Source: Tetradesmus obliquus (taxonomy: Eukaryota > Chlorophyta > Chlorophyceae > Sphaeropleales > Scenedesmaceae). From it: 64,000 bases of DNA. Below are positions 1 through 54,400 of the stretch, piece after piece. The position numbers and the translations under genes are program-made. Within the stretch, counting starts at the first letter, position 1, and each line of letters opens with the position of its first letter. The DNA lies in contig CP126203.1 in NCBI GenBank assembly GCA_030272155.1, positions 868,001-932,000 on the forward strand, read 5' to 3'. Under the pieces are notes generated by a model, which worked only from the letters and a program-made list of their open reading frames with translations, had not been told where the DNA came from and did not search any database.

Positions 1-3000
1 GTGCCAAGTATTTCACTACAGCAGCAGGATGTAGGCATGTCTGCTGCCGCATACGCAGCCCCCTATGTGTGCTCGCCACACACTGCGCAGCAGCTGCTGC
101 AAGACATGCCGGAGCTTCAAAGCCACTGCTACCAGCTGGCGCTGCCAGCAGTGCAGGCAGCTGAACAGCTGGCTGCTGACTGCAAGGCTCAGCTGATGAG
201 CGGCTGCGGCTGGGCCCTGCTGGAGCATGTGAGGGATGCACACTGCCTGGCACGGCAGCAGCAGCAGCAGCAGCAGCAGTTGATTTGCATTGACAGTAGC
301 AGCAAGGATGCTGAAGATGGAGGAGCAGCACAAGCAGGAACTGCTGAGAAGCAGGTTGGTTCGAATGCAGGGGGAGTAGCAGCAGCAGCACAAGCAGGCA
401 CTGCTGCTGCTGCTGCTGCTGCTGCTGCTGCTGCTGCTGCTGCTGCGGCTCCGGCTGAGCCTGCTGCAAGGCATCTGGCAGAGAGGCTCGCTGCTGCCCT
501 TGCTAGCATCCACCAGGCAGTATATGAAGCTTACGAGCAGCACTATGCTACTCTGCAACCCACCACCAGCAGCAGCAGCAGCAGCAGCAGAAGTGAGGCT
601 GGCGCAGCTGGCTGCACCAATACCTGTAGTACCCCGCAAGCTGCAGCTCTGGCAGCAAGCCAAGCTGTGCCGCTGGCTAAGCCATTTGATATGCTGCAGC
701 TGCTGCCTGGGTTACTGTCAGAAGGCCGAGGCCGCTTAGCAGCTCGCACAGCCAGCCTTGCCACATGCATTGCGAAGACAGCGAAGTTGCAGCAGCAGGT
801 GCAGGAGCTGCTGCAGAGGCGGCAGCAGCAGCAGCTAGGCACAGCAGCAGCAGCAGCAGGGTCCAGAGTGGATGCTGGTGCTGCAGCAGAGGTGGCAGTA
901 CTGTCCAGCCTGGCTGACCGCCTGCAGCAGCTGATGAGCAGGTGGAGTGATGAGCTGGAGCAACAGGTGAGCTGCAGGTCTCTGCAACTTTTGCTGCGTT
1001 AGGCAGCACATTTCCGCACAGTTCCGCTGCACAAATCACGTGCCATTGCCGTGCCATGTTTCCTGATTGAGAAGCTAAGCCCATTGCCTCTTGTCCTGCC
1101 TGCAGGTGCTGCCAGCCCTTGTGCAAGTGCTGCCTACTGCCCTGCTAGCTGCCATTGAGCTGGTCTACCTGGGGCCCCTGCCAGCCACCACACAGCAGCA
1201 GCTGCTGGCGCACTGCAGCCAGCTGCTGACAGCAGCAACAAGTGTCCATAAAGGAGGCATGTCTTCATCAACAGGAGGTGCTGCTGCAGCTGCCAAAACA
1301 CCAAATATAAGTGTCAGCAGCAGCAGGCACCTGCTGCAGCTGATGCAACAAGGCAAGGGCCTATTGTCGCCATCACAGCTGATGCAGCAACTGCAGCTGC
1401 TGCAGCCTGGCAGGCCACTTTGGCAGCAGCTGCAGTATGCTGCAGCAGCTGCTGCAGTGGCGGCTAGCAGTGGGCAGCCTCTAGTGGTGCTGGACCCTTG
1501 GCAGTTGTTGCCACAGCTGCTTGGGGATGAGTCAGGCCGGCTAGGAGCTAGTGGTTCTGCTGGTGGTGACCGGCAGTGGGTGGTGATGCATACAGATGGG
1601 CGGACTGTCAGTGCAGATTGTAACACAGCCTCCAGCAGCAGTAGCAGCAGCAGCAGCAGCAGTGATGGTCTTGCACATGAGGTGATGTCAGCTGTGCAGG
1701 AAGCGCTGCTTGCAGGCAGCAGTGTATGCCTGCAGCTTCACAGCGGCATTGGGGACGCATCTTCCCTGGCGCATGCTGTGGCTGCGTGCCGTAGCATGTT
1801 GCAGCTAGCAGCAGCAGCGGGCACCGCCAGCAGCAGCAGCGCAAGTATCACAAGCCCTTTGTTGGGTGCAGCAAAGTGGAGCAGCAGCAGCAGAAGTAAG
1901 CCATCCAGATCTAGGAGAGGCACACGGACAACAGTAGATCAGGCGCTGACCGGCAAAGGCTCCACAGCAGCAGCAGCAGCAGCAGCAGCAGCAGCAGCTT
2001 TGTACTCTTGTGCTGCTGCTGGTGGTGGAAGTCCGCCGTGCATTGTGCTGCATGTTGGCAGCAGCAATGTTGAGCTGCCTGCAGAGCTGGTAGGCAGCTG
2101 CATGGTGATTGACCTAGGTGGCCTGAAGCAGCAGCAGCAGCAGCAACAGACGTGTATGCAAGCAAAGCAGCAACAGGATAGCAGCTGCTGCTACCTAGCT
2201 GAGGCAGTGCTGCGGCTGGTGCTGCAGGCAGCAGCCCCAGCTGCTGTTGCAGCAGAGGCAGCAGCAGCAGATGAGGCAGAGGAGGCAGCGCAGCAGGCAT
2301 GTGAAGATGAGGCTTTGCTGATAGCAAGGCTATCACAGGTGAGGCCAGAGCAGGAAGTCGCTTGCAGCTGATCCAGTATGCAGGTCAGGTTGCCTGTCTG
2401 TCCTTTTCTGCATGCTGTTTCTAACTAGCGTGCCTGCCGTTGTGACTAGACAGTTGGCGCATTTATCGCTTTCAGCAAGTAGCACAGCTGCTGTCACTGT
2501 TACTCAGTTGTCACGAACTTGATATATGTTCCTTGTCCCCTTCATGCTCCTGCAGGACCTAGCTACAGCTTCCACGCTGCCAGTGCTGTTGATATGATCT
2601 GATGTGTATGCTGCTGCACGTGTTTGCTCACGGTTATACTGCTGCTTTTGCTTTCACCTGCTCCTGCAGGACCTAGCTACAGCTTCCACGCTGCCAGTGC
2701 TGCTGCAGTCGCTTGCCTCATCAGCACAGGAACTGGCCGCAGTAGAAGCAGCAGCAGCCAGCATGGCCAGAGCAGCAGCTGCTGCTGCAGCACACCTGGC
2801 AGCTGACTGGCAGCCCTTGGCACATGCCCTGATGCAGGAGTTGATGCAGCAGCAAGACGGCGTTGAAGGTTCACAGCAGCAGCAGCAGCAGCAGCTGTGG
2901 CAGCTACCTGCGGAGGTCTTGGCAGCAATTGTGCGGCGTGCTGCTGCAGATGCAGTGGCAATGCAGCATCAGCAGCTGGCACAAGAAAGCAGCACTGACA

Positions 3001-51430: not shown

Positions 51431-54400
51431 TTAAGTTGCTGTTTTCGCTGCCAGCAGCTGCTTGCCCCGCTGCAGCCAAGCATCTGGCTCTACTGCATCC
51501 ATGTCTGTGCTGATGGCAGCATGCACAGTGACATCCAGCAAGCGCCTTGCAGGAAGGTTCTGCCCCAGCACCCTGGACTGCAGAACCAGCTGCAGCTCTG
51601 CCCCCAGCCATTCCCAGCTGCTGCTGCTGCAAGAAAATGGACTTACTGCTGCACCCTCTGTACAAGAAGCGCCACTTGCTGGCCTGTGCAGTGCCGCTGG
51701 CTGCTGCTGCAGCCCCTCAGCTGCGGTGTCTGCTCCCTCTTCTTCACACGGATCTATGCTGCTGCTACTGCTGCTCAAGCTTGCTGAATGAAGCACCAGC
51801 TGCTTGCACAGCGCTGATACCTCAGACACAACATCCTCTGGCAAGCCAGCTGCAGCACCAGACTGTTGCACCGCCGAACACTCCTCTGTTATGCTTTGGC
51901 ACCTGCCAACAAAGCCTCCCTGCAAGCCCTGCTGCTGATTGTCCTGCTGGACTTTCGGCGGCCGAGCACTGCTGCTGCAGTGTTGCAGCATGCCGCTGCT
52001 GCTGCTGTACATGCCCTGCTGCTGCCTGTGCTGCTGCAGGTGTGGCTGAGCAAGGGCCTGCAGGGGCTGGCAAAACTCCCATGCTGTTGTGGCTATGACA
52101 GCAACGTCCTGCCTCAGCACCGGCAGCCAGGCAGCTGATGGCTGCAGCGAGCAGTACAGCTTGGATAGGTGCTGCGTGGTGTGCAGCAGCATCTGCAGCA
52201 CAGGCAAGAGCAGCAGCAAAAGCAGCAAAGGGTTGAAGCAGTGCGCAAAAGTGAAGCCGCCAAACATTCTGCTCGTCTGTTGTTTGCAGTTGTTGCACCC
52301 TCTTGCGTTGCCATAAGCTGAAGTCACTGTGCATGCACATCATGGTCTCAGTCACCGACATTTTGGCTGTGCAAACTCAAGCAGTTACACAACAGCAGCA
52401 GCAGCACGGCAACGGCTATTGGAGCACAAAGAACAAATCCTCACTGGCATGATGTGCCAGCAAGCCACGCAACATTACTTATGCCTTGCACCCACTGAGC
52501 CTCACCTGCGCCAGTATGTCTGCAGCCATGCAAGCTGGCAGCACCCGCCGCAGCACACACAGCCACGACTGCAGCAGCACGTGCAGCAGCCGCACGGCAG
52601 GGCTCGCCAGTGCACAACTGCTACTACGAGCCTGTTGCTGCTGCGCCGTCACACACGTCTGCTGCTGCAGCTGTTGTTTCTGGCTGCCAGGCTGCCGCAG
52701 GGGCGGGCGGTGGCTGGTCCAGGGCTGCGCTGCTGCTGCCTCCACAACTGCCCAGTGAATTGTGTCCTGCAGCTGCTGCGCCAAGTGCTGCTGCAAGTAC
52801 TGGAGCAAGGCAGCAGCCTGATGTGCGCACACAGCAGCAGCAGCAGCAGCAGCAGCAGCAGATGTCAGCAAGCGTTCCTGCCTGCTTTTGGGCATTTGGA
52901 TCGGGAACTCGCAGGACTACGCCATTGCAGGCCGTGAATGTACAACACACTCAACATCATTTGCAGCTCTGCAAAAGACATGCAGCCAGTGTGCTAGTTG
53001 CAGCCAAGCAGCTGCTCCATGCGCACCTTATCAACAGCAGCATCAAGCAGCGCCAGCGGATCATGCATGCTTCTTTAATCTAGATCACCCTGCTGCTGTC
53101 CCTGCTGGCTGCCACCCTGCGGCTTCCACTCCTGCTGCAGCCAGGCCAGCCGCCGCTGAATGCACAGCACAGTACTGATACAGCAGCAGCAGTGTGCTGC
53201 GGTGTCTTCACCGCTGCTGCTGGCGAGGCTGCTGCTGCTGCTGCCGGGATAGCCAAACAGCGACTCCATCTGCTCCATTGCTGCCAGCAGAGCCTGTATA
53301 ATAGCTCCCACCAGCACATCCTGCGTCATTGACGCAACAGACCACAGCAGTCGCATAATGTTTATTGGCCCTGTGGAACCCCTAACTCTCTGCCAGCAGA
53401 GCCTATACAATGGCCCTAACCAGCACATCCTGCAGTAAAAGCATCAATTGCAGCGTTTAGCAACATTCTGATGTGCTGGCCTTTCACCAAACAGCGACTC
53501 CATCTGCTCCATTGCTGCCAGCAGAGCCTGTACAATAGCTCCCACCAGCACATCCTGCAGCACCACAGCAATGACACACAGCAGTTGGCATTCATCTGGG
53601 CTGTATGTGGCTGCTGACTCTCTTGAACCCTTCATGACATCATTATAATAGACAAAGCTGGCGGGTATGCAGGAATTATCCTTGCAAAAGTATGTTGATG
53701 CAGCAGGCAGCTCACCTGTACAAGCAGCGGGAACTGCTGCCGCCTGGCGAGGAACAGCCCTGCAAACAGCAGCACCTGCTGCTGCCCCTGCGACACCTGC
53801 TGCGGCTGACTCAGCACTTCATCTGCTGCAGCACCAGCACCTGCCACCCCACTGCTAGCTAAGCTGTTCGCCCCGCGGCCAGTGATGCTGTTGGCCCTCA
53901 AGCTCAATGCACCGAGCCCTGCAGCTTCACCCCTGCTGCCTGTTGCGCTTCTGCGGCTGCCACAGCTCATAACATGATGCAAAGAGCTGCCTGTGCAGCT
54001 GCCTCTGCTGCGCCAGTGGCCTGAGCTGTTGTGCCTGAACCTAGCAGGCGTGGCAGCGAGGTCCCACACTCCAGTGCGTTGGTCATACGTCATCAAGCTG
54101 TTGCTGCCAAATATGCTCAGCGCTGTGCTGCTGCTGCTGCTGCTGCTGCTGCTGCTGCTGCTGCTGCTATCTGATGTAAGCTGCTTGCTGGAGCTAGTAC
54201 TTTGCAAAACTGCTACGGTGTGCTGCTGACCTGCTGCTGCTGCTGCCGCTGCTTCTGCACTCGCCACAGGGGGCCAGGTATCAGGTGTGACGTCTGCTGC
54301 TGAGTACAGCAAATCATTCAATGGCTGCTGCAGTAGCTCCTCTTCTAGCGCATTCTGCACAAGGCATGCCAACGTTGGCGCCATTTAGATGTGCACCAAA

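Follow-up and report, generated by a model that had tools for sequence, protein, structure and literature searches.

The window analyzed here is a stretch of 64,000 nucleotides from the green alga Tetradesmus obliquus (G000:C13:868001-932000 in a 104.66-Mb assembly of 17 contigs), with a GC content of 56.4%; a value of 57% is given for the species in the available part of PMC5966456. In this window, the edges of many exons, together with their splice sites, recur as tandem copies in the adjoining introns, and we refer to these surplus copies as echoes. A self-BLAST search for local direct copies with a period of up to 1500 bp yielded 19 clusters. By our own reading of the sequence together with the gene models, on which the choice between the real copy and its echoes also rests, about 20 splice-site edges (11 acceptors and 9 donors) in six gene models carry 1 to 5 extra copies each. 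These results bear out an initial annotation of the stretch as to the number of boundaries and copies and as to their placement, with acceptor copies upstream and donor copies downstream of the exon; where it counted eight genes, six gene models are supportable. One further array spans a predicted stop codon (48321-48707), and two repeats detected by BLAST and Tandem Repeats Finder (18651-18812 and 23878-24615) could not be placed at any edge. The arrays are listed below, with S and N denoting synonymous and nonsynonymous changes, respectively; P0004 is a published T. obliquus protein discussed further on.

2545-2705, plus strand: the real acceptor edge at 2659-2705 is preceded by one echo at 2545-2591 with a period of 114 (97.9% identity over 47 bp); intron part 0.71, equal to the control level
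6297-6883, minus strand: acceptor edge HPDTISARCSRYTYGVN with three upstream echoes; two copies at 95-99% identity, the third at 82-84% over 55 bp
7189-7640, minus strand: donor edge DANKAVVL with three downstream echoes, period ~128
9156-9516, minus strand: donor edge GGGTVDIAMH with two downstream echoes (95% and 80% identity), period ~142
9900-10332, minus strand: acceptor edge LPYDCPFT with upstream echoes and CAG runs between them; real copy chosen by reading frames
19416-19762, minus strand: donor edge VMERNHRT, real donor 19702, with two downstream echoes, period 141; segment present once in P0004
20017-20187, minus strand: acceptor edge LGLRVDGST, real start 20068, with one upstream echo (90% identity), period 112
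20490-20510, minus strand: short acceptor echo, CAG followed by GTGTTTGACCGCAA, upstream of the real exon starting at 20413; found by eye, missed by the BLAST runs
20664-20820, minus strand: donor edge QLYRFMFE, real donor 20777, with two downstream echoes, period ~52; echoes absent from P0004
29147-29270, minus strand: one donor-side echo of exon c (real exon 29560-29384); 124 bp at 93.5% identity, S8 N0
29600-30286, minus strand: five acceptor-side echoes of exon c; inner breakpoint 74-87 nt into the exon in 5 of 5
30760-31300, minus strand: exon b (31527-31372 for the real copy) is followed by four donor-side echoes; units of 181 bp form a clean array over 31008-31463
31580-32030, minus strand: three acceptor-side echoes of exon b, each with its inner breakpoint at 77 nt
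32218-32420, minus strand: two donor-side echoes of exon a (real exon 32570-32442)
32625-33265, minus strand: five acceptor-side echoes of exon a, the inner breakpoint of each falling at 53-56 nt; a degenerate sixth (32745-32790) is not counted
35942-36300, minus strand: donor edge LKLDYVSYQ of exon f (36476-36350) with three downstream echoes
46556-46755, plus strand: acceptor edge GGVERLGQL, real edge at 46706, with one upstream echo (94% identity) past a CTG run
48321-48707, minus strand: predicted coding end DRIRL-stop with three further downstream copies, period ~108
49452-49635, minus strand: acceptor edge VCHPHYLDHF, real edge at 49493, with one upstream echo (96% identity), period 129
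49809-49983, minus strand: donor edge INMDPRLSL, real donor 49936, with one downstream echo (83% identity), period 121
53253-53560, minus strand: acceptor edge DVLVGAI in three copies (98.6% and 86-89% identity)

The extra copies of the DRIRL-stop segment are likewise preceded by gcag, so that alternative last exons are possible. The DVLVGAI copy at 53324 runs on into a longer open frame and was read as the real one; the gene finder picked another. The gene at 5830-12020 on the minus strand bears, by our reading, four echo arrays at its edges, and it appears to contain Hsp70-like motifs.

Two of the genes have support independent of our gene models. In the gene at 28.3-38.4 kb on the minus strand, all six edges of the consecutive exons a, b and c are copied, with one full copy of each exon and 20 partial copies (5, 3 and 5 at the acceptor edges and 2, 4 and 1 at the donor edges of a, b and c, respectively), and exon f carries three more donor copies; the comparison of this gene comprised 24 alignments, one of them of a degenerate unit. 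The members of each acceptor array share an inner breakpoint within the exon, at the positions listed above, and therefore each of these arrays probably grew from a single founding duplication. The peptides of exons a, b and c are present once each in the proteins of five relatives, and exon b joins exon c directly in four of the five; in the remaining one, P0003, 37 residues intervene, which look like a read-through intron. The gene is probably the end of a longer gene containing leucine-rich repeats, because its relative in Scenedesmus sp. PABB004, named LRRC74A, is 2194 residues long and carries PF13516 as a precomputed assignment.

The second gene, at 17.8-21.5 kb, encodes EF-hands. The published protein P0004 (OEZ86_008975), the annotation of which may or may not rest on RNA data, is 100% identical to our draft over 64% of the latter and contains each full-length edge once and lacks all of the echo peptides; at these edges, the relative P0005 matches it. 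The echo LGLKVEGST of the LGLRVDGST edge, absent from P0004, retains two residues of P0005. Altogether, there are 43 amino acid differences between real exon and echo in 26 echoes of the two genes, of which 6 match a relative rather than the real exon, and at 21 every aligned relative sides with the real exon. Some echoes appear to retain ancestral residues.

The duplication pattern extends beyond the window. Our sample consisted of 25 further stretches of 10 kb (250 kb in total), taken at round-number positions and distributed over all 17 contigs, and the same self-BLAST procedure detected 94 clusters there, with at least one in 20 of the 25 stretches. When the period was restricted to less than 260 bp, there were 18 clusters in the window and 88 in the sample, and the span of these clusters, of any kind and including the originals, amounted to 12.0% of the 64 kb and 12.5% of the 250 kb. 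Adjacent copies lie 100-149 bp apart in 96 of 171 pairs and less than 90 bp apart in 8. The distribution of clusters is very uneven (none in 7 of 25 loci, 12 in L015 and 14 in L027; variance/mean 4.5), and the variation of the duplication load from gene to gene is large. Among the loci with little strong coding signal, L003, L009 and L023 have no clusters and L005 has one; L009 and L023 hold apparent genes.

Exon edges outside the two genes were delineated with a hidden Markov gene finder trained unsupervised on 314 kb (the window and the sample) without RNA evidence. This program over-splits CAG-rich exons and calls many echoes exons, and therefore only internal exons of at least 110 nt were used; from 250 such exons away from locus ends, we dropped the lowest tenth by coding score and any exon with a probe containing more than 25% simple repeat, leaving 200. 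The sidedness seen in the window recurs in this set, which is drawn from the window and the 25 loci: a local copy of the 40-nt acceptor edge was found upstream for 38 of the 200 exons and downstream for 13 (p=6e-4), and a copy of the donor edge was found downstream for 37 and upstream for 12 (p=5e-4). Triplet-shuffled probes gave no matches in any class of this test. Probes from the middle of the exons also matched, 17 upstream and 20 downstream of 200, so that there is a background besides the edge effect. For exons of at least 150 nt, copies become rarer inward from the edge: upstream copies have a frequency of 17.6% for the acceptor edge and of 8.4-9.9% at 60 nt and beyond, and downstream copies one of 16.6% for the donor edge and of 9.2-11.8% farther into the exon. 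We think that the floor in the interior rates comes largely from longer repeats that contain whole exons.

The same bias is seen among pairs classified with no edge required (one member within an exon no shorter than 60 nt, period below 220). There were 41 acceptor-crossing and 51 donor-crossing pairs compared to 10 in which an exon-interior copy had its partner outside the exon; in the rest, both copies were located in one exon (40 pairs, which are not independent) or the copy reached the other end of the exon (12). When the labels of all 171 pairs were compared with random placement, both copies crossed an edge in 56 (null, 20%) and both were intronic in 19 (null, 22%), a modest enrichment; the gene finder tags many echoes as exons.

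In many cases, the duplicated unit appears to extend beyond the exon edge. Where the alignment is clean, homology frequently ends with the splice consensus. The intronic portion of the repeat nevertheless has an identity that averages 0.684, as compared to 0.600 in unrelated flanks, and it exceeds its own 95% control in 22 of the 41 edges; this final test was confined to the duplicated intron part, whereas an earlier, wider flank test had taken in bases beyond the unit. Therefore, in many cases, intron and exon edge appear to have been duplicated together, with the intron part decaying faster. Copying of exons alone via RNA, which came into consideration because the cores end at the splice consensus, was dropped in view of the intron homology at these 22 edges. 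In 25 cases, the copies are adjacent, in the same orientation and homologous over the whole unit, as young tandem duplications should be.

The copies differ in the way they have changed. In 25 arrays with at least two echoes, changes were assigned to branches (50 sites with other patterns were set aside), and the changes private to the full-length copy are mostly synonymous (S35:N9), whereas those private to the extra copies are not (S69:N95, p=1.4e-5); when the 28-38 kb gene is left out, the respective counts are 23:8 and 60:80 (p=0.0025). Furthermore, 22 of the 26 indels in echoes shift the frame. From these sequence comparisons, we conclude that the full-length copy is most likely the functional exon and that the echoes drift, although partial constraint or unequal mutability may also act.

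The surplus splice sites are largely intact. Among 55 pairs of a real site and its echo, the AG is kept in 25 of 25 echoes and the GT in 26 of 30, with median scores of 5.88 for echo and 6.39 for real acceptors (25 pairs) and of 6.23 and 6.60 for the respective donors (30 pairs); 18 of the 25 echo acceptors and 23 of the 30 echo donors score above the tenth percentile of real sites. For the surplus to be discarded, the spliceosome would have to select the last of the acceptors together with the first of the donors, the two sites that face each other over the shortest distance across the exon. Because surplus and real sites differ little in strength, splicing probably pairs sites across the exon, which would amount to exon definition. 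In recursive splicing, ratchet points carry a donor immediately behind the acceptor (AG/GT) and are used stepwise; a GT directly follows 11 of the 25 real acceptors that have echoes.

Probably, these observations are explained by tandem duplication of units of ~100-150 bp that occurs in genes at a high rate and is filtered by selection through splicing; we infer the mutational mechanism, the splicing choice and the survival by selection. Under this explanation, T. obliquus genes would gain tandem duplications of roughly 100-150 bp (units of ~120 bp) at a high rate. Within a coding exon, selection would purge any duplication whose length is not divisible by three. One that crosses a splice site would be tolerated because the exon at the full-length remainder keeps a working acceptor or donor; the mRNA would stay intact, and the surplus edge would end up inside the intron, with the spliceosome probably taking the acceptor and the donor between which the distance across the exon is shortest. 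In further rounds, the unit would multiply, giving arrays with as many as five surplus copies. Purifying selection would continue to act on the real exon, but the surplus edges and the intron part duplicated with them would drift, and the exon edge with its splice site would therefore stay visible longest. The spacings are consistent with such a filter. The absence of copies from exon interiors, stated in the initial annotation, holds for the copies found in the window; in the sample, there are 4 or 8 interior pairs, depending on the model, and their spacing is divisible by three in 4 of 4 or 7 of 8, respectively. The spacings of edge copies fall into the three frame classes as 27:33:32 and are not confined to multiples of three. 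The array across the predicted stop codon is expected if translated surplus is filtered out, and not if the mechanism is bound to splice sites.

Several results weigh against this explanation. The frame test is partly circular because the gene finder demands an open frame, and the exons outside the two genes depend on this RNA-free finder. At 19 of the 41 edges, intron homology is not above the control, in a few cases with a core identity of 97-100%, and at several edges with 94-100% core identity the intron parts are at the control level, a contrast that exceeds a simple clock. Neutral drift of the echoes alone predicts, by our own reckoning, a ratio of nonsynonymous to synonymous divergence (dN/dS) of ~0.5-0.55, and the observed values are lower. 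Between real exon and echo, dN/dS is 0.117 in the 28-38 kb gene, 0.26 over 110 copies (S364 N219, with N ~465 expected for neutral echoes; these remained from 186 copies when 25 that did not reach the edge and 51 whose edge had a further match on the other side were removed) and, by our own arithmetic, 0.43 over the 55 nearest pairs (S156 N148); between echoes, it is 0.38 in the window and 0.44 in the sample. The low pairwise values may result from repeated counting of the real branch or from faster silent mutation, and there may be partial constraint on the echoes. Constraint on the echoes, suggested by the ratios of 0.117 and 0.26, is weakened as an explanation by the test of private changes; gene conversion between real exon and echo and interspecific recombination were considered as well and put aside on reasoning alone. 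Echo splice sites have lower mean scores than the real ones (5.50 versus 6.77 for acceptors, p 0.055; 4.57 versus 6.00 for donors, p 0.068), so that decay of the surplus sites may also help in discarding them. Finally, L004 and L025 contain apparent multi-exon genes without local duplication in the BLAST run. Overall, splicing as a filter, one of two readings offered in the initial annotation, draws support from the sidedness, the frame of the interior spacings, the drift of the echoes and the intron homology, and fits less well with the pairwise dN/dS.

The other reading, an active process that favors exon-intron boundaries (for instance, by staggered nicks or by template switching under the guidance of co-transcriptional splicing or of exon nucleosomes) and leaves a minor role to selection, gains from a further result that is unfavorable to filtering. 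Among the 25 whole-unit duplications, 20 cross an edge, 3 are in introns, 1 is in an exon and 1 elsewhere, whereas random placement of whole units yields 53% crossing, 31% intron, 10.5% exon and 5.5% other; when only crossing and intron-only units are counted, 20 of 23 cross compared to 63% expected (p=0.017). This modest excess could reflect targeting or labelling errors, and intron-only pairs, which change on both sides, should be harder to detect. The narrow range of periods and the strong clustering along the genome would also fit a targeted process, but in-frame duplications do arise inside exons, and one array spans a predicted stop codon. Targeting is not required by the data, and we consider it unlikely. 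That the echoes are functional alternative exon ends, spliced, translated and retained by selection, could account for the low dN/dS of the 28-38 kb gene, with a single indel and no stop codons in its 24 alignments, and for the retention of strong AG and GT sites. Such a role is hard to reconcile with the changes private to echoes (S69:N95) and their frame-shifting indels, with the lack of echo peptides in P0004 and the presence of exons a, b and c as single copies in five relatives, and with the 21 of 43 differences at which all aligned relatives match the real exon, and we hold it to be quite improbable.

Even less probable is the insertion of mobile or introner-like elements, such that the exon edge would be a long target-site duplication and the spacer the element itself. 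The spacers between many copies do appear unrelated to their surroundings, but at the one locus queried, an 84-nt segment of core plus spacer matched just its two local copies in the 104.7 Mb; furthermore, intron parts keep local homology at 22 of 41 edges, and arrays share breakpoints. We give almost no credence to an assembly artefact because the copies differ by structured substitutions and recur on many contigs. Beyond the preferred explanation of duplication filtered through splicing, we entertain, tentatively and with considerable doubt, a broader scenario in which an ongoing, boundary-biased duplication of nucleosome-like size copies exon edges into introns throughout the genome, would account for much of the ~1/8 of the sampled sequence contained in local duplications and be a main cause of the species' long introns, would be tolerated only through cross-exon pairing, and would leave datable fossil coding copies.

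Other features of the window and the sample are noted here for completeness. Of five draft proteins searched with Pfam, one has EF-hands and a second has an anticodon-binding AD domain; the search gave no domain for the remaining three, including the 28-38 kb draft. The gene with the AD domain (59038-60519, minus strand; PF09793, E 3e-27) is presumably LSM12-like. A GCA repeat of ~117 units (26430-26779; 350 bp, 95% match) is the longest among many CAG/CTG runs listed, and a perfect ATGTA pentanucleotide repeat of 13 units is located at 47254-47319. In the sample, positions 1-6039 of L018 consist of long tandem arrays with periods of ~275 and ~350 bp and open frames, which are satellite-like rather than echoes, and an open frame in L019 that we take to resemble a DDE transposase occurs twice within a single 10-kb stretch in the joined translation.

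Echoes are a trap for gene finders, as illustrated by the one trained here, which took many of them for exons. They also make intron growth visible copy by copy. Every echo can be set against its original, the one edge drifting and the other constrained, and hence a single gene could reveal the neutral rate as well as how old an array is and which coding states are ancestral. The abundance of strong surplus splice sites turns exon versus intron definition in green algae into a directly testable question. Edge duplication could also account for part of the longer mean intron of T. obliquus, 462 bp compared to 230-302 bp in four other green algae, according to the available part of PMC5966456.

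Tandem duplications touching splice sites are already known; as for the pervasive form, of which the initial annotation knew no named description, no account of arrays of exon edges in introns was found among the titles and abstract openings of the matches listed from the open-licence literature (subscription papers and preprints being outside this scope). Repair of staggered nicks or patch repair yields short tandem duplications and could give units of about this size. Exon duplication produces complete, translated and conserved exons, whereas in the genes examined only edges appear to have been copied. With introners, as described in the available part of PMC9860276, the echoes have in common the presence of intronic copies throughout the genome, but they are local and derived from the adjoining exon, and at the one locus tested, the core-plus-spacer query revealed no element shared among unlinked loci. 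In Drosophila, according to the available part of PMC2891723, novel intron positions arise by sliding or tandem duplication, and 5 of 31 were attributed to the latter; there, too, local duplication near splice signals alters gene structure and one copy turns intronic, but the cases are few and involve new positions, whereas here the position is kept and ~1/5 of the tested edges are copied on the expected side compared to ~6% on the other. A close parallel is the AGGT model, in which tandem genomic duplication is a source of introns (PMC3443670, in the part available): there as here, duplication provides surplus splice sites and the duplicated stretch is spliced out. In that model, an exonic segment makes a new intron. 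Here, the unit spans a splice site that is already present, and its repeated duplication in arrays makes the intron longer; in the 28-38 kb and EF-hand genes, the introns exist without the copies.

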